A stretch of DNA of 9,746 bases, taken from Patescibacteria group bacterium (lineage in GTDB: Bacteria > Patescibacteriota > Minisyncoccia > Phycocordibacterales > SIBU01). The notes under the pieces are model-generated. The model made no database searches. It was not told the origin of the DNA and saw only the letters and a list, made by a program, of their open reading frames with translations. The translations under genes and the position numbers were made by a program. Of this stretch, positions 1 through 9,746 are shown in pieces (the first letter of the stretch is position 1; every line of letters begins with the position of its first letter). The stretch is from the NCBI GenBank assembly GCA_018968805.1, contig JAGWZX010000013.1:1-9746 (forward strand), given 5' to 3'.

Positions 1-330
1 GGTTTGCTGTGGTTGCCAGGGGCACGGGTTTCGCCCGTAAGATGTCATTCCTATGAAGCCTAGGGGGATCTCCGAAATACCTCCATTGGCCTCTAAACAC
101 AGGTTCTCACCTCGTTCAACATGCGGAGCCGAAAAAGTTTAGCCGTCCATTTTGGCCGGCTTTACTTTTTCGGCTCCCCGGGAGAAAGCCGCGGGGCGGC
201 TTTCGTTAGGATTCGAAGCCCCGTTGAGTATAAAATTTGAGTCTTGAAAAATTTTATCCAACGGGGGGTACTGGTCATGTAATGACCGAAAAGCGTACTC
301 GTGGTCCTACCCGGGGAGCCCAGTTGGACA
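1..330. other. Dense hairpin region; candidate structured RNA or mobile-element end, family unknown
   Basis: No convincing gene is seen here. Directly visible perfect inverted repeats are: a 5-bp stem at 24-28/34-38; a 14-bp stem at 125-138/164-177 topped by a further 5 bp (141-145/157-161); a 9-bp stem with GGG loop at 184-192/196-204; an 8+9 bp stem at 219-226/259-266 and 230-238/249-257; and a 6-bp stem at 273-278/282-287 flanked by GTAC/GTAC. An 11-bp long-range match (172-182 with 310-320) could close a multibranch loop around the last three hairpins, competing with the 3' arm of the 14-bp stem. I do not recognise the conserved cores of tmRNA, RNase P, SRP, 6S, or group I or II introns on either strand. 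The transcribed strand is unknown. It may instead be DNA-level structure at the edge of an integrated element. The left boundary may lie outside the window. Confidence 0.45.
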
Positions 331-459
331 CTTAGCCAGTTCTAGGGTGTTTAATCTTGTAACGATGCCCTTCAAATCGGCATTGATTCGATACCACGTT
401 CTATCAGTGCATCGCTTGCCATTCTTGTTGACGCTCGTAAAGACAATAAAATTGCTCAT
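307..459 (-). CDS. Possible small ORF, 50 aa, unknown function
   Basis: An ATG-to-TAG frame on the minus strand encodes about 50 residues beginning MSNFIVFTSVNKNGKRC and ending CPTGLPG. The composition is plausible for a protein fragment (WYRIN, LKGIVTRLNTLELAKC), but it has no recognised domain and no Shine-Dalgarno site. A terminator-like 6-bp hairpin (467-481) lies just upstream of its start. Its stop overlaps the 11-bp helix arm of the structured region. The opposite strand is also open here (about 355-487, no ATG), so coding sense is not established. It may be a decayed gene of the mobile element or a chance frame. Confidence 0.15.
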   Translation of the reverse strand: MSNFIVFTSVNKNGKRCTDRTWYRINADLKGIVTRLNTLELAKCPTGLPG

Positions 460-466
460 TCAAAAA

Positions 467-481
467 TACGCAGTCTGCGTA
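467..481. terminator. Small hairpin with T-run on the minus side
   Basis: TACGCA/TGCGTA forms a perfect 6-bp stem with a 3-nt loop. Read on the minus strand it is followed by TTTTTG, the shape of a weak intrinsic terminator. It could end a minus-strand transcript coming from the recombinase side, or be chance. Confidence 0.25.
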
Positions 482-522
482 GCTAAATTCCAAGGGCTTT
501 TATTTTCTCATCAATGAGAGCC

Positions 523-532
523 GACCCGTCAG
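523..532 (+). repeat. Short imperfect direct repeat, copy 1 (GACCCGTCAG)
   Basis: GACCCGTCAG here and GACTCGTCAG at 946-955 differ by one base. Both encode Thr-Arg-Gln in the same reading frame, and the second copy directly abuts the 3' end of tRNA-Glu. The pair brackets the recombinase remnant (423 nt apart) and could be a relic of attachment-site recombination, but ten bases can also recur by chance. Confidence 0.3.
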
Positions 533-945
533 ACTTTGGAACACCTAAATTACAGCACATCTGTTACTGATTTAGAAAGGAAAATAAAAACAAAGATTAC
601 GGAGTTAAAAGATAAAAAAAATAAACTGCTTGATTTGAGAATTGAGGGCAAACTATCTGATGAGGAATTTGCACCAGCCAACGAAAACTACAAATTCAGG
701 ATTTCAGAGTTGGAAAAAGAAGTGAGCAATCTTTCCACTCCAGAGCTAGGGTTGGATAATGTGATTGATTCAAGTGTTGAGTTTCTTAAACACCTTCCTG
801 AAAACTGGAAAAAATTGCATGTAAAAGACCTTAGAGTTTTAAGAACCCTGCTTTTCCCACAAAATCTCATTTATGCTTATCCAACTATTAAAACCCCTGA
901 ACTATGCTGTATCTACAACATAAAACCTGAATTCATAGATGAAAA

Positions 946-955
946 GACTCGTCAG
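946..955 (+). repeat. Short imperfect direct repeat, copy 2 (GACTCGTCAG), abutting tRNA-Glu 3' end
   Basis: This is the partner of the copy at 523-532. Its last base coincides with the CC that follows the tRNA-Glu discriminator, so it sits where an attachment-site crossover would be expected. Confidence 0.3.
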
Positions 956-956
956 G

Positions 957-1028
957 TGACCCTACCGGGAATCGAACCCGGATTTTAGGCTTGAAAAGCC
1001 CACGTCCTAACCGTTAGACGATAGGGCC
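957..1028 (-). tRNA. tRNA-Glu (anticodon UUC)
   Basis: The minus strand folds as a full cloverleaf: acceptor GGCCCTA/TAGGGTC, D arm with AACGGTTA loop, anticodon stem TGGGC/GCCTA with loop TTTTCAA (anticodon TTC), and T arm CCGGG-TTCGATT-CCCGG, then discriminator A. The genome continues CCT, so CCA is not completely encoded and must be added after transcription. Its 3' half overlaps the end of the recombinase frame, making it the likely integration target. Confidence 0.95.
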
Positions 1029-1045
1029 AAACTATCGTGAAAGAA

Positions 1046-1074
1046 ATGCTAGCATTTTTTGATGAAAAAGCCAA
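1046..1074 (-). promoter_or_regulatory. Putative promoter of tRNA-Glu
   Basis: On the minus strand, TTGGCT (1069-1074) is separated by 17 bp from TAGCAT (1046-1051), which is preceded by TGC, an extended -10 arrangement. It points at tRNA-Glu 18 bp downstream and overlaps the divergent tRNA-Ser promoter. Confidence 0.45.
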
Positions 1075-1087
1075 AAAGTGCTATAGT
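1059..1087 (+). promoter_or_regulatory. Putative promoter of tRNA-Ser
   Basis: TTGATG (1059-1064), 17-bp spacer, TATAGT (1082-1087). Expected transcription start is about 1094, just before the tRNA at 1098. Spacing is optimal and each box is close to the sigma-70 consensus. Confidence 0.6.
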
Positions 1088-1097
1088 CCTCGCTACT

Positions 1098-1187
1098 GGA
1101 GGCGTGGCAGAGTGGTCGAACGCGCCGCACTCGAAATGCGGTATGTCCGAAAGGGCATCGGAGGTTCGAATCCTCCCGCCTCCGCCA
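1098..1187 (+). tRNA. tRNA-Ser (anticodon CGA)
   Basis: A 90-nt class II tRNA: acceptor GGAGGCG/CGCCTCC, anticodon stem CCGCA/TGCGG with loop CTCGAAA (anticodon CGA, reading UCG), long variable arm (TGTCCGAAAGGGCA), T arm GGAGG-TTCGAAT-CCTCC, discriminator G and encoded CCA. The large variable arm and discriminator G are serine identity elements. Confidence 0.96.
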
Positions 1188-1244
1188 GATTACCAAGTTT
1201 GAACCGAGGTGAAGCAAGGCATTTAGGATCATTTTATCCTTTGG

Positions 1245-1253
1245 TGCTAAAAT
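1245..1253 (+). promoter_or_regulatory. Extended -10 promoter for the 1260 gene, predicts a leaderless mRNA
   Basis: TGCTAAAAT matches TGnTATAAT at 8 of 9 positions. The ATG at 1260 lies exactly 7 nt after the -10 hexamer, so transcription would start at or very near the start codon. No -35 box is obvious and no Shine-Dalgarno site precedes the ATG. Confidence 0.45.
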
Positions 1254-1259
1254 AAAATC

Positions 1260-2768
1260 ATGAATCACAAGCGTATAAGCTCATGGAATCGGGGGTTTGT
1301 GAGCGTTCCGCTTCTCGCGGCCATAATCTTCGCCGTACTCGCAATCGGCGCGGCCGCCTTTCTCGCGGGACGTTCAAGCGCTCCCGCAGTGGGATCGGGA
1401 CAGGGCTGGAACATATCGGGCCCGCGTCCGTCGATTGACGAGGTGATGCGGCAAATCGGATGCTCGGACGAAACGGCATGCACCGCAGTCTGTGCCGCGG
1501 CGCATCCGCCGGCTGAATGCGCGGAGCTTGAGACGCTTATGCGACAGCAAGGCACATGGCCTGCAGGGCATGTCGACGGCTCGGAGGTTGCCGCGACAAA
1601 CGGTAAACCGCCTGTTTCGGGCGCATCAGCGCCGCCCGCCGAGCGCGGCGCGCCGAGTGGACGGCAGGAGGTCGCGTACACGGGCGACGGTACCGCGACA
1701 AACGCGGGCGCGTTGCCGGATTGCCCGGCCGATACTAACGCGTTTTTTGATACGAACCCGCTCGGTGGAGATCTCGCAAACATTATCCCGCTTGGCAATA
1801 TGAACGGCGCGCATATTCTTCCGAATCAAGCCGATCATGTCTATTTTGTCGCTTCCTCGCCAGCCGCGACTAAAGTGTACGCGCCCGGGAAAGCGACCCT
1901 GCTCCAAGTGGTCACTCAAGTGGATTTGACGAACAGGGAAGGCAACAAAGCGACAATCTTCTTCTCTCCTTGTAAGAGCGTGATGTTCGCTTATCAGTTT
2001 GATTCTCTAAGTCCGGAACTTGCGCAGGCGATCGCGGGACGTACCCCGGACCAAGTGCAGGAAGGTTCCGTGATGCGCAATACCGTCTATGGCGGGCTTA
2101 GTATTCCGATTACGAGCGGCGAAGAACTAGGCACGATCACGGGAATGAACGGCATCGCGGGCGAACTTGATTTCGCGGCTGCCGATGTCCGCACGCCGTC
2201 CTGGCAGTTCATCGATCAAGGAGAAGCTACCGGCATGATCGCCGACAGCTACCTTCACGCGGTTTGCCCGCTTGATTATTTCAGTAACTCTATGCGCTTG
2301 ACGCTTCGTTCGATGCTCACCGCCAAGAATTCTGGAGCGAACGGCATACCGGCATGCGGCGCCATCATGCAGGACAAGGCGGGGACTGCTCAGGGCAATT
2401 GGTATAAGTTCGGCACCAGTCCCCGCAACGGCCTCGTGTTAAGCGATCTTCTCGCTCTGGTGCATTCCAACCTCGATCCTACGCAGGGCGTGGCGAGCTT
2501 CGGCACCGCGCTCGCGCCGTCGCCATGGTCCGGCACGCAGATCGTTTTCTCGCCGACGCACGACGGCGTCGTCAATCGGGAGCCGAGCGAGATTACCGCC
2601 GACGGGAAGGTGTATTGCTTCAACGGTCCCGCCGGAGCGGGCGGACAAGGGAGCGAAGGACATCTCAATATCCAAATGACGAGCGTGACCGAGCTTAAAG
2701 CGGAATATGGCGCAGGCGCGTGCGCGCCTGCGCCCGCGCTCTCAAATCCGATCACCTACGAAAGATAG
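1260..2768 (+). CDS. Secreted or membrane-anchored protein, degenerate M23-like, unknown function
   Basis: This 502-residue protein has a basic N-terminus followed by one hydrophobic segment (about 15-36), so it is exported and probably membrane-anchored. A linker holds a cysteine cluster C68-x5-C74-x3-C78-x8-C87, then low-complexity A/P/G sequence to about 150. The segment from about 165 to 255 (IIPLGNMNGAHILP, DHVYFV, KVYAPGKATL, IFFSPCKSV) resembles the beta-rich core of M23/LytM-type domains seen in Patescibacteria, but the usual HxH metal motif is not visible, so catalysis is doubtful. A C-terminal part carries HAVCPLDYF, P-x-CG and QDKAGTAQGNWY (371-382), a motif I associate with uncharacterised secreted proteins. 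There are ten cysteines in all, consistent with disulfides outside the cell. The start is fixed by the signal-like N-terminus and the adjacent -10 box. The function is not known. Likely a single-gene transcript. Confidence 0.8.
   Translation: MNHKRISSWNRGFVSVPLLAAIIFAVLAIGAAAFLAGRSSAPAVGSGQGWNISGPRPSIDEVMRQIGCSDETACTAVCAAAHPPAECAELETLMRQQGTWPAGHVDGSEVAATNGKPPVSGASAPPAERGAPSGRQEVAYTGDGTATNAGALPDCPADTNAFFDTNPLGGDLANIIPLGNMNGAHILPNQADHVYFVASSPAATKVYAPGKATLLQVVTQVDLTNREGNKATIFFSPCKSVMFAYQFDSLSPELAQAIAGRTPDQVQEGSVMRNTVYGGLSIPITSGEELGTITGMNGIAGELDFAAADVRTPSWQFIDQGEATGMIADSYLHAVCPLDYFSNSMRLTLRSMLTAKNSGANGIPACGAIMQDKAGTAQGNWYKFGTSPRNGLVLSDLLALVHSNLDPTQGVASFGTALAPSPWSGTQIVFSPTHDGVVNREPSEITADGKVYCFNGPAGAGGQGSEGHLNIQMTSVTELKAEYGAGACAPAPALSNPITYER
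2709..2734. repeat. Perfect 12-bp inverted repeat inside the 3' end of the secreted-protein gene
   Basis: GGCGCAGGCGCG and its exact reverse complement are separated by TG. It lies within codons for GAGACAPAP, 34 bp before the stop. It is all G and C apart from one A-T pair, and no T-run follows it, so it is not a standard terminator. Confidence 0.7.
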
Positions 2769-2833
2769 CGCGGTTGATTTTTAAGCAAAATATCACTTCC
2801 TCATTTTTCGCAAATTAGAATTTTATCGTTCAC

Positions 2834-2865
2834 AAAAACCGCTCCGCGCGTCCGCCACGCGAAGC
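2834..2865 (-). terminator. Putative intrinsic terminator of the peptidoglycan-binding protein gene
   Basis: On the minus strand GCT-x-CGCGT and ACGCG-xx-x-AGC form an imperfect 8-bp stem around a GGCGG loop, followed shortly by TTTTT. It lies 64-95 bp past the minus-strand stop. A smaller stem closer to the gene (ATTGCG/CGCAAT, 2908-2925) has no T-run. No good terminator for the convergent plus-strand gene is visible in 2769-2928. Confidence 0.4.
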
Positions 2866-2928
2866 AGTTATTGCGACGTGTTCAGCGTGATTTTCCAAAA
2901 TCTGATAATTGCGTCGCTCCGCAATCCG

Positions 2929-3651
2929 CTAGTTGTCTCCGCCCCCGCTATTGTCTCCTTGTTTATAACCGCCGTTTTCAGTCGAAGAGGCGTTGTTGTT
3001 TTCCAAGGCGGAAGTGCCGGATCCGTTTTCGTTTTCCGAATTGCCGATTTCTTTTGTTGTCGATGCCTCATTGCCTGATTGTTCAGAGTGCGTGTCGCCC
3101 TGTTCGCATTCCCGTTCAATTTCACTGTCAAGATTTTCCCGCGTCTTCGGACCGACTAGGCCGTAGCCCGTTGACGAGGTGTCTCCTCCGGAGACAATGC
3201 CGTGGGCCGCTTGCCAGCGCCGGACCGCGTCCTCGGTCGCTTTGCCGTAATAGCCGGTTACCAAGCCTTCCGGGTAAATGGAAGAATCACTCTTGAGAAA
3301 AGTCTGCAAGCGGGAGACATCGCCGCCCGTTTCCTGGTCGTTGGAACCGAGGTGCAGGCCGTTTGATATTGCCGCGCAGGAAGAGCTTGATCCGGTATTG
3401 GTTTCGCCGCCGGTGTTTGCGTTGGTTGAATAATCGGCCGGTGTGGTCGAGGCTGAGCCTTGGTTTCCCAAGTCGGTTTGAACCTGGCTGATGGTGGCCG
3501 GATCCACTCCGAACGACTGGAGAAGACCGATGACGGCTTCAACTTGCGCCGCGCTAAGCGCGGCGGCGTTCGCCGTTGCCGCGGCGCCGATAAAAATTAC
3601 GCCGACAATGACGCCCGAAAGCAACAAATACGTTTTTAGTTTGTTATGCAT
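2929..3651 (-). CDS. Secreted peptidoglycan-binding domain protein
   Basis: This 240-residue protein begins with a signal peptide (hydrophobic 8-24, likely cleavage after ATANA near 29). Residues 32-61 (LSAAQVEAVIGLLQSFGV followed by DPATISQVQTDL) form a small helical motif I associate with exported Patescibacteria proteins. Residues about 99-175 are a PF01471-type peptidoglycan-binding domain: LHLGSND, DVSRLQTFL, GYYGKATEDAVRRWQ and GLVGPKTRENL are its hallmarks, although an insertion (SGGDTSSTGY) splits the last helix. Cysteines 92 and 182 flank the domain and could form a disulfide. The tail (181-240) is E/N/S/G-rich low complexity. No catalytic domain is present, so it probably anchors at or decorates the cell wall. 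The start is chosen by the signal peptide. It is transcribed towards the convergent gene at 1260-2768. Confidence 0.85.
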   Translation of the reverse strand: MHNKLKTYLLLSGVIVGVIFIGAAATANAAALSAAQVEAVIGLLQSFGVDPATISQVQTDLGNQGSASTTPADYSTNANTGGETNTGSSSSCAAISNGLHLGSNDQETGGDVSRLQTFLKSDSSIYPEGLVTGYYGKATEDAVRRWQAAHGIVSGGDTSSTGYGLVGPKTRENLDSEIERECEQGDTHSEQSGNEASTTKEIGNSENENGSGTSALENNNASSTENGGYKQGDNSGGGDN

Positions 3652-3667
3652 GTGGTTGGTAAAATTA

Positions 3668-3719
3668 TTTATAATCGTGGCGGACCAAACTCAAACGACC
3701 GCCGTCCGAAATTATACCA
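3668..3719 (-). promoter_or_regulatory. Putative promoter(s) of the peptidoglycan-binding protein gene
   Basis: Two -10 candidates lie on the minus strand. TGGTATAAT (3711-3719) is a perfect extended -10 about 60 nt before the ATG, leaving a leader that contains GGCGG/CCGCC arms. TATAAA (3668-3673) lies closer, with a TTTGAG-like -35 about 16 bp upstream. Neither leads to a Shine-Dalgarno site. Confidence 0.4.
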
Positions 3720-3818
3720 TGCCTGTTTAAGCGAGCCAGTTCTTTTAAACAATTTGTCAAATTCCGCATCGGACGCGTTTTTTCCGGTGCGATTTTTCGG
3801 TCCCGCGCCGTCGGGTTT

Positions 3819-5201
3819 TCAGCTTTTCCATATTTTTTCCGCAAGACCGAGTTTTTCCGGCAGACGGTTGAGGTATGGTATGAAGGGAAACAGCACGAGC
3901 AGGGCGGCCAGCGCGCCGAGAATAATCACGCCGTCGCGGTCGCCGTTATCGTCGTTGGCCAGGATCGTATGATCAAGAAATCCCACGGGCGCCAGCCACC
4001 ACGCGCCGGGCGGCAGGGCGCCTTTTTCTTCGCGCATCATGCCCCATTGTCCGGTCGTGATATGGAGTTCCGATGCTTCGTTTTCCAGGACGCCGGTGTC
4101 GGCGAGGAAGCGCAGGGAATACTCCGGCCGGTTATCCGGCGCCTCGCTGTCGAGCGCCGATTCGTAAAGGCCGCTTTTGGCCATGATGACCAGCGCGCTG
4201 ATCGCCGGAATCAAGGGGTTGGCATCCGGCGCGATCGTAACAGTGCCGCCATTTTTGAAATAATCAGCGGCGTCGTTTATATTTTGTCGTCGCGTGGCCG
4301 CAGGCTCGTTGTCAAAAGCGGCAAGCTGGTCCGTTGTCTGGTTGGCGGCGATAAATTGTTCGTACGGTACCGTGACATAGACCGTGCGGGTGTCAAACTG
4401 ATAAGGATCGATTGAATCGAGGTATGTTGCCGTGCCGGACGCGCGCGTCAATTCGGCGATAAGCGCCCCCGCCATAAGGGACTGATTTTCTTTCGCCACT
4501 TCGGCTATGGTCGCCGGCGTGATCAAGGGCGAGGGAAAAGCGAAGGCTAGGACGATGATGATTGACATCAGTGCCAAACCGCGCGCGAAAAGCTTGCGGT
4601 GGTCTGCCGGCACCATCTTCACTTTTATGTCTTCGCGGTATGGCTTTGCGATACCGCGGATTTTTACCAGAAGGTAGTGGCAGAACAATATGATTAACAC
4701 GGCGAGCGGGATGTAAATCGCGTGAATTCCGAAAACCCGCCCGTAATCAAGAGTATTTACAATTTTGCCGACGAAGGCGCCATTGAAAAAATCGGCCGCT
4801 TGGAGAGCGCGGTATTGCGACGAAAAATCACCGCGCAGATCATAGCCGAATTCCGCTTCAAGCAGAATCAGAAAAAAAGCCGCCGCTCCCAAGATCCAAG
4901 TCAGCCGGCGCGGCGCTTTGAAGCCGCTAGTCAGGAACACGACCAGAACGTGTAGAATAACAATGAGAATGAGGGCTTGCGCCGCCCATAAGTGCACGCT
5001 ACGGAAGAACATTCCGGCGGGCGCGGCAAGCCACCAGGCCGGACCGAAGAAAACCATGAAGAGACCGGTAACGACAAGGGCTGTCAAACAAGTCAGCGCC
5101 AGAAAACCGAGTGAGTAAAAAAGCTTATTGCCGTAAGCCGGCACTTTCATTATCAGAATTTTCTTTTTGACCGCGTCCGCTAAATTCTTGGCGGTTTCCA
5201 T
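3819..5201 (-). CDS. Cytochrome b6-like di-heme membrane protein with extracytoplasmic domain
   Basis: A 460-residue protein. Residues about 25-230 match the four-helix cytochrome b N-terminal domain that binds two b hemes and oxidises or reduces quinones in bc1/b6f complexes. Helix B reads FFRSVHLWAAQALILIVILH, with GFKAPRRLTWILG after it, very close to cytochrome b6. Heme ligands are H70/H84 (14 apart) and H160/H175 (15 apart), the spacing of b6 rather than of bc1 (14/14). Helices are about 27-51, 69-92, 98-115, 158-181 and 207-228. Residues about 230-422 are a largely polar domain, then one TM (424-443) and a short tail LPFIPYLNRLPEKLGL-like (here FPFIPYLNRLPEKLGLAEKI). No PEWY quinol-site motif or normal three-helix C-terminal half is seen. 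No Rieske, cytochrome c/f or oxidase gene is nearby, so the electron partner is unknown. CPR bacteria usually lack respiratory chains, which makes this gene unexpected. Confidence 0.85.
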   Translation of the reverse strand: METAKNLADAVKKKILIMKVPAYGNKLFYSLGFLALTCLTALVVTGLFMVFFGPAWWLAAPAGMFFRSVHLWAAQALILIVILHVLVVFLTSGFKAPRRLTWILGAAAFFLILLEAEFGYDLRGDFSSQYRALQAADFFNGAFVGKIVNTLDYGRVFGIHAIYIPLAVLIILFCHYLLVKIRGIAKPYREDIKVKMVPADHRKLFARGLALMSIIIVLAFAFPSPLITPATIAEVAKENQSLMAGALIAELTRASGTATYLDSIDPYQFDTRTVYVTVPYEQFIAANQTTDQLAAFDNEPAATRRQNINDAADYFKNGGTVTIAPDANPLIPAISALVIMAKSGLYESALDSEAPDNRPEYSLRFLADTGVLENEASELHITTGQWGMMREEKGALPPGAWWLAPVGFLDHTILANDDNGDRDGVIILGALAALLVLFPFIPYLNRLPEKLGLAEKIWKS

Positions 5202-5222
5202 GGCTAATTGAATATGCCGTCA

Positions 5223-5231
5223 ATTTTATCA
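5223..5231 (-). promoter_or_regulatory. Putative extended -10 promoter of the cytochrome b gene
   Basis: The minus strand reads TGATAAAAT (TGn plus TAAAAT). The start codon at 5201 lies 21 bp beyond, giving a leader of about 15 nt with no Shine-Dalgarno site. The -35 match is weak. Confidence 0.4.
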
Positions 5232-5319
5232 GATCACGGGCTTTGAGCGAAAGTGCCGGCGTAAGATGAAAGCCGAAATAATTTCCAACGCCATAGCCGT
5301 GAGCATTTTTCCCAACTCC

Positions 5320-5328
5320 TGTTATAAT
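5320..5328 (+). promoter_or_regulatory. Extended -10 promoter of the deacetylase-amidase operon
   Basis: TGTTATAAT is a perfect TGnTATAAT. The predicted transcription start is about 5335, which rules out the earlier in-frame ATG at 5266 and supports the ATG at 5362. The -35 region (around 5300) matches poorly, as is common with an extended -10. Confidence 0.6.
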
Positions 5329-5361
5329 GGGGCACGCAATAACATCGAGTATTTATCTTTC

Positions 5362-6135
5362 ATGAACGGGAAAAGGATTGTTGCGTTGCTGGCGGTCATT
5401 TTAGCTGTCGCGGGAGGCGGCTATTTTTATCGGCGGGAAATTTTAGGCAGCCGACTTTCGGCCGTTCAAAAAGCCGGATCTGACCCCGCCGTTTTATCTC
5501 AGGCCACCGGCACGCCCCAAATTACAACCCAAGTATTAAGCGAAATTCGTCACGGTGATCGATCAAAGAAACAAGTTATTTTTACTTTTGATGGCGGTGC
5601 GGGCATTCAATCCGCAGACGCCATTCTCGCCATCCTTGCCAAGCATCATGTTAAGGGCACGTTTTTCTTGACCGGTAAAATGGTGTTGGGCCATCCGGAT
5701 CTTGTGAGGCGCATCGCGGCGGCAGGACATGAGATTTTCAATCACACTTACGACCACAAAGATTTGACCAAATTGACCGAGGCGGATATCAAGCGGGAGC
5801 TTTTAGATATGGACAGCGCGCTTGAGAAAACTGTCGGTTCTTCAACGCGGCCTTACTTTCGGACGCCATACAGCGCGGTCAATGCAAAGGTGCTTTCGGC
5901 CGCCGGCGCGATCGGTTACCGCTCGGTTGAGTACACTCTTGACGCTTTGGACTGGAGAGAGGGGCGGGGCGAAACGGCGGCGCAAGTGCAGAAAAGGGTA
6001 TTGTCGCACGTCGCACCGGGCGTGATCTATCTCATGCACCTTGGTGACAATATTACCGGTGAGATTTTGGACAAGCTCTTTAGCGATATTGAGGCTCGGG
6101 GATACAAAATAGTCTCTTTAACTCAAGGTCTATGA
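5362..6135 (+). CDS. Membrane-anchored polysaccharide deacetylase (CE4/NodB family)
   Basis: This is a 257-residue protein with an N-terminal anchor (about 5-22) and a NodB-homology domain at about 70-255. CE4 enzymes remove acetyl groups from N-acetylglucosamine or N-acetylmuramic acid in wall polymers using a divalent metal. The motifs are MT1 TFDGG (75-79, general-base D77), MT2 HTYDH (H128, H132), MT3 RTPY (167-170), MT4 DALDW (194-198) and MT5 LMH (H226). MT1 normally reads TFDD; the second Asp, a metal ligand, is Gly here, so metal binding may be altered. All the other active-site residues are present, so I expect an active enzyme. An in-frame ATG at 5266 would start upstream of the TATAAT box and add no signal-like sequence, so 5362 is preferred. 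Its stop overlaps the next start (ATGA), indicating translational coupling with the amidase. Substrate is inferred, not shown. Confidence 0.88.
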   Translation: MNGKRIVALLAVILAVAGGGYFYRREILGSRLSAVQKAGSDPAVLSQATGTPQITTQVLSEIRHGDRSKKQVIFTFDGGAGIQSADAILAILAKHHVKGTFFLTGKMVLGHPDLVRRIAAAGHEIFNHTYDHKDLTKLTEADIKRELLDMDSALEKTVGSSTRPYFRTPYSAVNAKVLSAAGAIGYRSVEYTLDALDWREGRGETAAQVQKRVLSHVAPGVIYLMHLGDNITGEILDKLFSDIEARGYKIVSLTQGL

Positions 6136-7349
6136 AAAGACGTTTTTTGGAGTTATTTATTTTGGTTCTGGCGGTCGGCGGCTGGTATGCCGCAAGCCAA
6201 TTTTATTCGTTTGCCGCGCTCGGTCGAATGACTATGTCAAAATTGAATACGGTCATGTTTCGCGAATCGGCCGCAGTCAGTAATCCATCGGCAGGTAACG
6301 CGGTCCCGGCCGATCCGAAGACGCGCGTTTTGATCGTGCCCGGTCACGAGCCGGACTATGGCGGGGCGCAGTTCGGCAATATTGATGAAAGGAATTTAGT
6401 GGCGGAAATAGGAGGAGATCTTGATCAATTTCTTTTAAGCAACAACCGTTATCAGGTTTTTATCACTAGGGGCGCGCAAGCGTGGAATCCTATTTTTGCC
6501 GATTACTTTGCTAAAAATTGGGCGAGCATCGTATCGTGGGAACAGGCTTCAAAAAAGAACGGTTCCAGATTGGCGGCTCTTGGTTCTAATGGACCGGTTG
6601 TAAAACATCACGGAACTCCGACTGACGTGGCGTTGCGTCTTTACGGAATAACCAAGTGGGCCAATGAAAATAACATCGACTTGATGATCCATCTCCATCT
6701 GAATGATTATCCCGGACATTCTTCGGCCCGAGCGGGAAAATATTCAGGTTTGGTCATTTACACTCCGGCTGATCAGTATAACAACGGCTCCAAGACCGAA
6801 GCCGTGGCGAAGGCCGTTTTTAAACGGCTCTCGTTATATAATCCGATTGACAATTTGCCGGTAGAATCACGCGGCATAATTGACGATCCGGAGCTGATTG
6901 CCGTCGGAGCGAACAATACCGCCGACGCCGCGAGCATGCTTATTGAGTACGATTACATCTACGAGCCGCAATTCGTCAATCCGGCCGTGCGCAGTCTCGC
7001 GCTGAAAGATTTGGCATACCAGACTTATTTAGGTCTGGATGATTATTTCAATCGCGGCGCTTCCACAACCGTAACTTATGATCCGAAAATTTTATACGAT
7101 TGGCGGAATCCGGTGTCAGGAAAAAATGCCAACCCCGAAGATATCTACGCGCTCCAGACGGCTCTCATTATGGACGGGGATTATCCGCCTTCGGGCAAAA
7201 GCAAAAATGATTGTCCTCACAGCGGAACTTTTGGCGCCTGCACTGCCGCCGCGTTATCGGCGTTCCAGCGCAGGAACGGTATTACGGATGAAGGGATTGG
7301 AGGAGTGAAAACCTTTGAACTGCTACGGAAAATTTATCAAGGAAGCTAG
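6132..7349 (+). CDS. N-acetylmuramoyl-L-alanine amidase with C-terminal peptidoglycan-binding domain
   Basis: This 405-residue exported protein has an N-terminal hydrophobic segment (about 7-30). Residues about 64-305 are an Amidase_3 domain, a zinc enzyme that cuts the bond between N-acetylmuramic acid and the first L-Ala of the peptide stem. Ligands and catalytic residues are visible: H72 in VPGHEPDYGG, E86 in DERNLV, H189 in HLHLND (the HxN motif), and catalytic E272 in LIEYDY. The family domain is usually about 180 residues; here an insertion of about 45 residues (115-160, WNPIFADYFAKNW and following) lies between the first and second zinc motifs. Residues about 333-402 are a PF01471-like wall-binding domain (EDIYALQTAL, FGACTAAALSAFQRRNGI, GGVKTFELLRKIY), with C361 and C370 able to form a disulfide. 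Start and upstream stop overlap by 4 nt, so it is co-translated with the deacetylase. Together they suggest coordinated wall trimming. Confidence 0.9.
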   Translation: MKRRFLELFILVLAVGGWYAASQFYSFAALGRMTMSKLNTVMFRESAAVSNPSAGNAVPADPKTRVLIVPGHEPDYGGAQFGNIDERNLVAEIGGDLDQFLLSNNRYQVFITRGAQAWNPIFADYFAKNWASIVSWEQASKKNGSRLAALGSNGPVVKHHGTPTDVALRLYGITKWANENNIDLMIHLHLNDYPGHSSARAGKYSGLVIYTPADQYNNGSKTEAVAKAVFKRLSLYNPIDNLPVESRGIIDDPELIAVGANNTADAASMLIEYDYIYEPQFVNPAVRSLALKDLAYQTYLGLDDYFNRGASTTVTYDPKILYDWRNPVSGKNANPEDIYALQTALIMDGDYPPSGKSKNDCPHSGTFGACTAAALSAFQRRNGITDEGIGGVKTFELLRKIYQGS

Positions 7350-7378
7350 AACTCATCTCAAAATGAATGGCGCAGCGA

Positions 7379-7480
7379 GGCGGTTTCCCGCCGTGCGAAC
7401 CGAAGCCCCGGAGGCCGAGGCGTATCCTGCGATACGAGCGGGGCCGAATGACAAGGCGGAGCCGGCGGTAAACCGCCGGC
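7379..7480. repeat. Cluster of three GC-rich hairpins between convergent genes
   Basis: Perfect stems occur at 7379-7383/7388-7392 (GGCGG, TTTC loop), 7421-7426/7431-7436 (CGTATC, CTGC loop, enclosed by GCCCCG/CGGGGC at 7405-7410/7439-7444) and 7461-7469/7472-7480 (GCCGGCGGT, AA loop). No ORF is supported here. The arrangement resembles REP-like or other intergenic palindromic repeats. Only one copy is visible in this window. Confidence 0.55.
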
Positions 7481-7487
7481 AGGAGCC

Positions 7488-7510
7488 AAGCCAGGAATCG
7501 GCTTTATTTT
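7488..7510 (+). terminator. Possible terminator of the deacetylase-amidase operon
   Basis: AAGCC (7488-7492) pairs with GGCTT (7500-7504) around a 7-nt loop, followed by TATTTT. The stem is short and its tail is interrupted by an A. It is the only plus-strand candidate before the convergent gene. Confidence 0.3.
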
Positions 7511-7523
7511 AGATGGGTTCCAG

Positions 7524-8447
7524 TCACTTCGCGCGCAAATAGAGATAAATATCTTCCAACGCCTTGACGGCATCGCCGACCGCGATGTTGTTTTGGTGAT
7601 AAAAACCGTTCGTGCAATCTCCGGCGGCCCAAACGCCTTCTGTGGATGTGCGTTGGTTGCGCGGGTCCACGACCACTTGGTTGAACCGGTCTCGTTCAAT
7701 AAGATTTTTGGCGTAATCAGTGGACGGCACCGAGCCGATTTCTACAAAGATGCCTTGGACGGGCAGTTCCACTTTTTTGTCGGTATCTTTTTCGCGATAA
7801 ACTATAGCCGTGACAAACTGCCGGCCTGTAACCTCCAAGATTTCCGCGTTCAGGATCGCGTGCATTTTGGGATTAGCCAGCACGGTTTTAACAGTCACAG
7901 GATCAGCCTTAAATTCTTCACTGCGGTGTAGTAGCACAACGCTTTTACAGTAGGCGAGGAGATTAGCGGCGGTGTCAAACGCGGCATTGCCTCCTCCCAC
8001 CACCGCCACATCCATATTGGCGAAGAGCGGTCCGTCGCACGAGGCGCAATAGACAATACCCCTGTTTTCATATTGGTCGGCGCCGGGCACGGCCAATTTG
8101 CGGCGGGCACTGCCACTTGTGATCAAGACGGTCCTGGTTTCGTAGGTTTCTGCGGAAGTTTTAACGGTAAATCCCGCGGCGGTTTTTTCCACATGCTCAA
8201 CAAGCGCGCCTTCTTTGACCGCGACCGAATCGGCCGCGTAGGCCAGCAAATGTTTTTTAAGATTAGCCGCCAAGTCCGCGCCGGAAAGGGAAACCGTGCC
8301 GATCCAGTTTTGGATTTCCGTGGACACTGCGCTTTGGCCGCCGAACTCTTTGGCGATGAAAATTGTTTTCAGGCGCTTGCGCGCGGCGTAAACTCCGGCC
8401 GCCACTGCCGCAGGTCCTCCGCCGATGATTGCCAAATCGTAAGTCAT
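7524..8447 (-). CDS. trxB: Thioredoxin reductase (TrxB-type flavoprotein)
   Basis: This 307-residue cytosolic flavoenzyme is expected to pass electrons from a nicotinamide cofactor through FAD to a thioredoxin-like disulfide. The FAD motif is IIGGGPAAVAAGVYAARK (7-24). The redox pair is C134/C137 in YCASCDGP. The cofactor-binding motif is VVGGGNAAFDTA (149-160). The second FAD motif GVWAAGDCTN is at 271-280. The length matches bacterial TrxB (about 310-320). At the site where E. coli TrxB has HRRxxxR for the NADPH 2'-phosphate, this protein has HRSEEFK (174-180): one Arg becomes Ser and another Lys, so NADPH preference may be weakened. No thioredoxin gene lies in the window. It stands downstream of ftsZ on the same strand but with its own promoter and a terminator between, so it is probably transcribed separately. 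Related ferredoxin/flavin-type reductases are an alternative, but the CxxC supports TrxB. Confidence 0.9.
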   Translation of the reverse strand: MTYDLAIIGGGPAAVAAGVYAARKRLKTIFIAKEFGGQSAVSTEIQNWIGTVSLSGADLAANLKKHLLAYAADSVAVKEGALVEHVEKTAAGFTVKTSAETYETRTVLITSGSARRKLAVPGADQYENRGIVYCASCDGPLFANMDVAVVGGGNAAFDTAANLLAYCKSVVLLHRSEEFKADPVTVKTVLANPKMHAILNAEILEVTGRQFVTAIVYREKDTDKKVELPVQGIFVEIGSVPSTDYAKNLIERDRFNQVVVDPRNQRTSTEGVWAAGDCTNGFYHQNNIAVGDAVKALEDIYLYLRAK

Positions 8448-8480
8448 ATGGTTTCTAAATTTTTTCGTCTGGACCTATAG

Positions 8481-8509
8481 AATATAGCGTATAATTCGCA
8501 AACGCAAGA
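8481..8509 (-). promoter_or_regulatory. Putative promoter of the thioredoxin reductase gene
   Basis: On the minus strand TCTTGC (8504-8509), 17-bp spacer, TATATT (8481-8486). The start codon is 34 nt beyond the -10, giving a leader of about 27 nt. No Shine-Dalgarno site is seen (AGAAA only). The -35 is weak. Confidence 0.4.
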
Positions 8510-8567
8510 GCTGTGCGGCGGTCGGCGGACGCTTAACAAGCGCGCATGACGCGCAAGCCGTTTACTC

Positions 8568-8598
8568 AAAATAAAAAATTCTATGGTATGCCGTAGAA
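8568..8598 (-). terminator. Intrinsic terminator of ftsZ
   Basis: On the minus strand TTCTACGG and CCATAGAA form an 8-bp stem (one C-A mismatch) with a CATA loop, followed directly by TTTTTTATTTT. It starts 37 nt after the ftsZ stop. It separates ftsZ from the thioredoxin reductase gene. A further small GCGCG/CGCGC stem lies at 8540-8554. Confidence 0.65.
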
Positions 8599-8634
8599 TC
8601 GTGTTACCAGCGCGAATATCGTACCCGGTCCGCG

Positions 8635-9746
8635 TTATTTTTTTGCCCGCCTCAAAAACGCCGGCACGGCGCTCCAGTCGTCATCTTCATCGGGAAGAGT
8701 TTTCTTTTCTTCCGCTTTCGGCGTTTCTTTTGCGGGTACAGGCACGGCGTTATAAATTTTGCCTTTTTCGGCCGGCGTTTCATGGCTGAACAGAGAACGT
8801 TTTACGCCGGGCATGTCGGGAAAACCGGAAGCGATTACGGTTATTTTTACCTCGCCTTTCTTGAGCTTATCATCGCGCACCGTGCCGAAAATAACCTTGG
8901 CATTCGGGTCAATTGATTCAGTTATGATTTTGGCGGCGTCTTGAATTTCAAACATAGTCAGGTCGTCGCCGCCTGCAATCGAGAACAATACGCCTTTGGC
9001 GCCGTGGATGGAAAGTTCCAGAAGGGGAGAGTTGATGGCGTTTTTGGCCGCCTCCTCGGCGCGTTTTTCCCCGGACGCCATGCCTATACCCATTAGAGCC
9101 GAGCCGGCATTTTCTAAAACTGAACGGATGTCGGCAAAGTCAACATTTATAACACCCGGCGTCGTGATTAGGTCGGAAATTCCTTCTACCGCCTGGCGCA
9201 GGACTTCGTCGCACATCGCAAAAGCGGCCCGCGCGGTGGTTTCTTTGCTTACCGTGGAAAGCAGACGGTCGTTTGGAATTATGATGATGGCATCCACCGA
9301 TTTGCGCAGATCTTCCAATCCTTGTTCGGCGAGCTTCATGCGCTGGGCGCCTTCAAAGAAAAACGGTTTGGTGCACACTGCCACGGTGAGCGCGCCTATT
9401 TCTTTGGCTGTTTTGGCTACGACCGGAGAGGCTCCTGTAAACGTGCCGCCGCCTTCGCCGCCGGCGATAAAGACCATATCGGCGCCTTTAATCGCTTCCT
9501 GGATTTCTTCTTTGGTTTCTTCCACCGCGCGCTTGCCGAGCTCGGGATTCATGCCGGTGCCGAGGCCGCGGGTCAAGTTTTTGCCGATGTGGATTTTTTT
9601 CTTGGCAAGAGTGTTGTGGAGATCTTGGGCGTCGGTATTGACCGCGATGAATTCAACCCCTTTGACTTTGGAGTTGATCATGTGGTTGATGGCATTCTTG
9701 CCGCTGCCGCCCACGCCCAAAACTTTGATTCGCGCGAATGCTTCTA
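8635..9746 (-). CDS. ftsZ: Cell division protein FtsZ, 5' end beyond the window
   Basis: FtsZ is the tubulin-like GTPase that polymerises into the cytoplasmic division ring. 369 residues are visible; the frame stays open to the window edge (EAFARIKVLGVGGSGKNA), so the TTG near 9720 is an internal Leu codon and the true start lies to the right. Landmarks in visible numbering are: VGGSGKNA with AVNTDAQDL after it; GLGTGMNPELG; the tubulin signature at 98-104; IPNDRLL at 156-162; the T7 synergy loop NVDFAD at 200-205; and a short acidic linker ending in VPAFLRR (360-366), the conserved peptide that binds membrane tethers such as FtsA. The signature reads AGGEGGGTFTG where the usual form is AGMGGGTGTG: Phe (codon 9439-9441) replaces a glycine in the nucleotide-binding loop and Glu replaces Met. 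The rest is canonical, so it probably still binds GTP, possibly with altered hydrolysis. A divergent FtsZ paralogue is an alternative. Confidence 0.95.
   Translation of the reverse strand, partial: EAFARIKVLGVGGSGKNAINHMINSKVKGVEFIAVNTDAQDLHNTLAKKKIHIGKNLTRGLGTGMNPELGKRAVEETKEEIQEAIKGADMVFIAGGEGGGTFTGASPVVAKTAKEIGALTVAVCTKPFFFEGAQRMKLAEQGLEDLRKSVDAIIIIPNDRLLSTVSKETTARAAFAMCDEVLRQAVEGISDLITTPGVINVDFADIRSVLENAGSALMGIGMASGEKRAEEAAKNAINSPLLELSIHGAKGVLFSIAGGDDLTMFEIQDAAKIITESIDPNAKVIFGTVRDDKLKKGEVKITVIASGFPDMPGVKRSLFSHETPAEKGKIYNAVPVPAKETPKAEEKKTLPDEDDDWSAVPAFLRRAKK

Follow-up and report, generated by a model that had tools for sequence, protein, structure and literature searches.

The window, a 9,746-nucleotide stretch of DNA from a Patescibacteria group bacterium (GenBank assembly GCA_018968805.1, contig JAGWZX010000013.1, positions 1 to 9,746), carries on its minus strand at positions 3819-5201 an intact open reading frame (ORF), from ATG to stop, for a protein of 460 amino acids (aa) that belongs to the cytochrome b/b6 heme-core superfamily. 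It is a single chain with predicted helices A to F and an enlarged loop between helices E and F. We propose, with moderate confidence and on the basis of modelled topology, that this cytochrome b with its outer insertion carries electrons across the membrane between an outside partner and quinone, probably without a Rieske protein. Cytochrome b as a kind is already known; the enlarged-loop form and its setting are new, and a search of the open-licence literature by title or abstract found no paper on such a protein.

Heme core and enlarged loop of the predicted protein

Two Pfam models of the cytochrome b N-terminal part matched the 460-aa protein above their curated cut-offs (PF13631, 53.1 bits versus 27; PF00033, 40.6 bits versus 27.2), and the best solved relatives in a PDB sequence search were b6 proteins (E 1.3e-16). 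At E ≤ 0.001, 395 proteins matched among 7995 candidates scored; the conservation counts given for homologues throughout refer to the best 120 of these 395. The following features were assigned.

3819-5201, minus strand: gene for a cytochrome b-like protein of 460 aa; one chain, helices A-F predicted, E-F loop enlarged (ORF, Pfam, homologues, model)
4656-5120, minus strand: four-helix heme core, residues 28-182, helices A-D (model and b6 alignment)
4992-4994, minus strand: H70, heme ligand in helix B, 120/120 homologues
4950-4952, minus strand: H84, heme ligand in helix B, 14 residues after H70, 120/120
4722-4724, minus strand: H160, heme ligand in helix D, 120/120
4677-4679, minus strand: H175, heme ligand in helix D, 15 residues after H160, 120/120
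4539-4601, minus strand: predicted helix E, residues 201-221 (model; alignment with other cytochromes b in their helix E region)
4008-4538, minus strand: all-helical E-F loop insertion, 177 residues (222-398), predicted to lie outside the cytoplasm (models)
3996-4010, minus strand: PGAWW, in the slot of the PEWY Qo motif (sequence; slot from structural superposition)
3930-3953, minus strand: DxNxDxDG motif, residues 417-424, calcium-loop-like (sequence)
3882-3944, minus strand: predicted helix F, residues 420-440, the last membrane helix (model; hydropathy segment 424-442)

The helices of the heme core span residues 28-59, 61-90, 99-125 and 153-182 in the model. A sequence-only reading of the window had pointed to four heme-ligand histidines with the 14/15 spacing of b6, and this was borne out both by the alignment with b6, in which the spacing is the same, and by the invariance of all four ligands, which rules out a chance match and likewise a dying gene at this position. 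The 14/15 spacing was present in 73 of 74 aligned heme cores, plant b6 included; the sole exception (14/16) was the PetB of genome G015, whose gene is adjoined by a Rieske gene. The core glycines are also invariant in the homologues.

At the other end of the protein the insertion immediately precedes the PGAWW segment, of which G399, W401 and W402 are invariant (120/120), as are R123 and D125, further residues of the Qo end. The PEWY glutamate is not retained. D417 and D421 of the DxNxDxDG motif were found in 120/120 homologues, and the motif may form a calcium-binding loop. The insertion had no match in PDB. Its loop is net acidic and the cytoplasmic loops are basic. The predicted model contains the four-helix bundle within a full-length cytochrome b fold and superposes over its full length; the fold, the topology, the outer position of the insertion and the placement of PGAWW in the PEWY slot are all predictions of this kind. 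A plain truncated b6 gene was considered and rejected, the C-terminal half (C-half) being conserved and homologous to a separate protein family, and the model superposing over its full length.

Relation to known cytochromes b

The protein resembles b6 (PetB of the b6f complex) in helices A-D, in the histidine spacing and in being matched best by b6 among solved structures. The earlier description of it as b6-type proved too narrow as a label, since the window protein continues in the same chain into predicted helices E and F, bears an insertion the size of a cap and lacks the helix A cysteine of b6. Residue 30 at this position is S in 115, A in 3 and G in 2 of the 120 homologues; the b6 cysteine is the ligand of heme c(n). 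The NCBIfam cytochrome b6 model scored 66.9 bits against a cut-off of 325. From cytochrome b of the bc1/bcc complexes (QcrB, mitochondrial) the protein differs in the 177-residue insertion before the Qo slot, in PGAWW replacing PEWY, in stopping after helix F and in that no membrane-anchored Rieske protein was found by PF00355 in the 20 genomes carrying this form. The NCBIfam models of ExtP, a cytochrome b of selenite/tellurite operons, and of SoxC match the heme core, but far below their cut-offs (61.9 versus 290 bits and 38.5 versus 740 bits, respectively).

A further likeness is seen in a sister family, referred to here as the split/fused form, with members in CPR (candidate phyla radiation) bacteria, Alicyclobacillaceae, Thermaerobacter and Actinomycetes, some of them named cytochrome B6. 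It shares the 14/15 spacing and a homologous C-half (probability 100, E 3.7e-38 for split C-halves against residues 193-460 of the window's family). Unlike the window's form it is often encoded by two genes (about 200 and 320 aa) and sometimes by one of 540-593 aa, and its insertion is somewhat longer. The split C-half had no Pfam match and 149 relatives at E ≤ 0.001, the named ones among the best 120 of these being Patescibacteria, Ferroacidibacillus organovorans and an Actinomycetes bacterium; plasmids gave no match to the Ferroacidibacillus C-half. The b6 half had 108 relatives, and those named include Acidibacillus, Alicyclobacillus ferrooxydans, A. tolerans, A. curvatus, Fodinisporobacter ferrooxydans, Thermaerobacter, Kitasatospora and Streptacidiphilus. 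Since the same protein plan occurs in Alicyclobacillaceae, cultured species included, it can be tested in the laboratory. The split C-half gene is overlapped at its end by a third, small gene in four CPR genomes (loci L028, L100, L101 and L102); these small genes form one family, two members of which had no Pfam match.

Host genome and distribution in CPR bacteria

The assignment of the source genome to CPR, made earlier from the sequence alone, is supported by the assembly size of 0.65 Mb (71 % complete), by the named close relatives among the best 120 (Patescibacteria group bacterium, Candidatus Parcubacteria and Candidatus Levyibacteriota) and by an FtsZ on the same contig with 53 % and 47 % identity to FtsZ frames of two other genomes.

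Across whole genomes the gene family is sporadic. Matches were found in 12 of 285 genomes of the class: the window's form in 4, the split form in 2 and other cytochromes b in 6. The order had 14 matching genomes of 397, of which 11 have the window's form, and the phylum 15 of 379, divided between the window's form (8) and the split or fused form (7). The window's own genome is included in these counts. Three other genomes of the same genus (98 %, 99 % and 89 % complete) lacked the gene. The window's form was represented by 20 distinct carriers, with G288 and G899 counted once because their proteins are identical and their contigs equally long; 13 of the 20 are listed as at least 90 % complete, and 19 have genomes of 0.6-1.4 Mb. 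The 2 Mb genome G285 (locus L002) may be mixed. Contamination of the bins is an unlikely explanation for the gene, as carriers include contigs of 219,520, 226,252 and 243,354 bases. Among the 11 genomes of the order with the window's form, G447 (98 % complete) retains the cytochrome b gene as a C-half alone (L064:7694-8644), possibly a decaying copy.

A tree of 74 heme-core sequences over 201 columns, in which 26 of 121 available sequences represented the window's form, fell when unrooted into three groups: the window's form (bootstrap 88), the split/fused form (bootstrap 100) and the other cytochromes b, 8 in number (bootstrap 100). With these 8 as the root, the window's form and the split/fused form each made one clade; support values were taken from the unrooted tree because rerooting shifts the labels. 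Inside the split/fused clade the CPR members stand apart from those of Firmicutes and Actinomycetes. The earlier suggestion that the gene was acquired by transfer agrees with its patchy distribution, the three same-genus genomes without it included, but this tree named neither a donor nor a direction of transfer. No relative was found in viral contigs with either alignment.

Partner genes in the carrier genomes

No Rieske, cytochrome c/f or oxidase gene lies beside the cytochrome b gene in the window, as had been noted before; the gene is an orphan in this sense, but not in sequence space, where it has its 395 relatives. Its own genome gave no match for PF00355 (Rieske), PF13442 (cytochrome c), PF00115 or PF01654, and no second cytochrome b, so that neither finding named beforehand as overturning the earlier reading, a non-CPR genome or a complete bc/b6f complex elsewhere, was made. 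As this genome is only 71 % complete these absences are weak, and the weight falls on the nearly complete carriers G254, G231 and G199 (99-100 %), which had no match for Rieske, COX1 (heme-copper oxidase), UbiA, PF13442 or cytochrome bd.

PF00355 had no match in 19 of the 20 carriers of the window's form, its own genome included; the single carrier with matches, G990, has frames of 132 and 110 aa. Among carriers of the split/fused form 4 of 8 matched, with five frames of 102-123 aa. Translation of all seven frames from these five carriers revealed no membrane anchor by eye, and because they are short (102-132 aa) and lack an anchor they look like soluble ferredoxins. A Rieske gene adjoining a cytochrome b gene was seen in a single case, that of the distant PetB of G015 (Rieske of 172 aa). 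This cluster, only distantly related to the window protein, resembles the Rieske/PetB complex of a Parcubacterium described in PMC5220378, which is likewise a cytochrome b in a CPR genome but is there accompanied by a Rieske protein, multiheme cytochromes and a full chain.

Of the 20 carriers of the window's form 5 have COX1, as do 3 of 8 with the split/fused form; the three oxidase operons read (G285, G287 and G289) contain cyo-like genes. PF13442 and cytochrome bd had no match in any of the nine carriers searched for each, PF13442 being the cytochrome c family covered. UbiA occurred in 3 of 9 carriers, each of which has a copy next to COX1, where CyoE would be expected. The a subunit of ATP synthase was present in 12 of 16 genomes, the window's genome among them. 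In soil CPR, bo3 oxidase operons have been described without quinone synthesis (PMC8407418).

Proposed function and alternative explanations

The retention of two heme sites in a transmembrane stack suggests that the two b hemes would form a wire across the membrane. The insertion would cap the site at which a Rieske protein docks. One end of the wire, likely that near the cytoplasmic heme, would use quinone, and the other would serve a soluble donor or acceptor on the outside, bound under the insertion or on it. If quinone and quinol were simply exchanged on each side, no net work would result, so one end of the wire needs a partner with a different potential. Any direction given to the electron flow would be a guess. 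In the Q cycle, as outlined in PMC9162462, the Rieske cluster takes the first electron from quinol; because no Rieske protein was found and a large domain sits on the docking loop, such electron splitting at the outer site seems unlikely here.

Neighbouring cells would need to supply both quinone and heme, given that the near-complete carriers tested had no UbiA match; for the quinol oxidases of CPR and nanoarchaea, a supply of quinones transferred from the host has been put forward (PMC4508563 and PMC6142677). Use of a host's electron chain, one of the roles offered by the sequence-only reading, would fit the lack of oxidase, PF13442 and UbiA matches in G254, G231 and G199. In carriers with a bo3-type oxidase, it would share the quinol pool of that oxidase, either feeding it or drawing on it. 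A bolder generalization, which we put forward tentatively and think less probable than the proposal itself, is that enlarged-loop cytochromes b represent a third mode of operation for a cytochrome b, as self-capped, stand-alone wires free of Rieske, which in CPR use the quinones and partners of the host cell and give a fermentative parasite a membrane potential.

According to PMC7507113, CPR bacteria are held to have lacked electron transport chains from the start. The conservation of a two-heme membrane protein in small CPR genomes makes it likely that some of them handle membrane electrons, because the protein is kept while an anchored Rieske was not found and a heme-copper oxidase is mostly missing. 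It also bears on whether a Rieske protein is indispensable for useful work by a cytochrome b.

Several observations weigh against the proposed Rieske-free electron carrier. A Rieske protein missed by PF00355, or another one-electron partner, could exist, and no neighbour family was common to more than 6 of 21 loci, so that no conserved neighbour identifies a partner. A second UbiA distant from the oxidase is present in G287 and G289, and quinone synthesis or modification is therefore possible there. PF00032 (Cytochrom_B_C) did not match the 460-aa protein at E ≤ 1, the profile comparison with other cytochromes b ends at helix E, and Foldseek's own alignments gave TM-scores of 0.33-0.50 with an rmsd near 20 over all columns; as these three fall short, the assignment of the E-F region and helix F rests on the VIA structural superposition.

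It is unlikely, though worth weighing, that the protein is the relic of a Rieske/cytochrome b complex, cut down but still splitting quinol electrons at Qo with a non-homologous or host-supplied one-electron acceptor. The invariance of R123, D125, G399, W401 and W402 would be expected from it, and there are Rieske-domain proteins in 1 of the 20 carriers with the window's form and in 4 of the 8 with the split/fused form; G015, a genome of the class, has a PetB beside a Rieske gene. The seven Rieske frames are, however, the short, anchorless and ferredoxin-like ones described above, no bc-type Rieske was found in the 20 carriers and the PEWY glutamate is gone.

CybB of E. coli takes electrons from superoxide. 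A dissipative or protective valve, passing electrons from an outside oxidant or radical to quinone or venting them to cope with oxygen, has a similarly low probability in our estimate. In its favour, the window contains a thioredoxin reductase-like gene, under the NCBIfam cut-off, and heme-copper oxidase was found in 5 of 20 carriers, whereas Beam et al. (PMC7507113) report oxygen reductases for 3 of their 492 single-cell genomes of Patescibacteria. This excess is significant in a rough test (Fisher p about 4e-4, even when calculated against the 162 genome equivalents of that study), but the comparison is confounded by kinship and habitat, which were uncontrolled, and has no measured background. 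Moreover, 15 of the 20 carriers had no heme-copper oxidase match, and the CybB-type family PF01292 (cytochrome b561) scored 16.3 bits on the window protein, under its cut-off of 30.1. A heme store or sensor without electron transfer, which would suit the lack of a recurrent partner gene and of other searched chain components in G254, G231 and G199, is very improbable, because a mere holder of heme would have no need of the invariance seen at both heme sites, in the core glycines and in the residues of the Qo end.

Gene neighbourhoods and additional observations

Neighbouring genes were compared by all-against-all blastp in 21 distinct loci of the window's form, with spans of about 3 to 19 kb. 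P-type ATPases of different subtypes lie near 6 of 21 loci, two of these from one genus, ABC transporter ATPases and efflux-adaptor-like proteins near 5 each and peptidoglycan-binding proteins near 4; as a background rate was absent, no family is called a partner. The P-type ATPase loci are L058, L060, L025, L002, L061 and L064, possibly by chance; in L058 and L060, which belong to one genus, the ATPase gene is directly upstream on the same strand with gaps of 48 and 5 bases.

In the window itself, a polysaccharide deacetylase and an N-acetylmuramoyl-L-alanine amidase with a peptidoglycan-binding domain are encoded at 5266-7349 with a 4-base overlap and are likely a wall-remodelling pair. A 150-aa ORF at 536-1028, for which no Pfam family reached its cut-off, extends into a tRNA-Glu gene of the opposite strand and is perhaps what remains of an element integrated at the tRNA.

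The soluble Rieske ferredoxin gene of G990 (L107:489-821) lies just behind an ORF resembling, by eye, the end of an iron-sulfur cluster assembly protein, and a similar pair was seen in G845 (L108). Another CPR cytochrome b without an adjoining Rieske gene occurs in loci L031, L032, L033, L034, L035 and L066, from five genomes of the class and G515. The four uncut copies are of 340-355 aa, and PPWW or TPWW stands at the Qo slot in the five that are readable. Two kinds of gene recur near it: 5 of 6 loci encode a rubredoxin reductase-like flavoprotein, and 4 of 6 encode a protein that begins with a TQIGLPDS-like sequence; L031 additionally has a multicopper oxidase and a DUF420-like protein under the cut-off. 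In G135 a 133-aa Rieske frame is present elsewhere in the genome. The DUF420-like protein of L031 belongs to a small membrane protein family (L003:7507-7947, L031:7098-7559 and L035:4524-5258); the cytochrome b close by is of the window's form in L003 and of the other form in L031 and L035. Finally, in L098 a tandem of an FAD/NAD reductase and an ApbE flavin transferase (11903-13868) lies about 2 kb from the cytochrome b gene.
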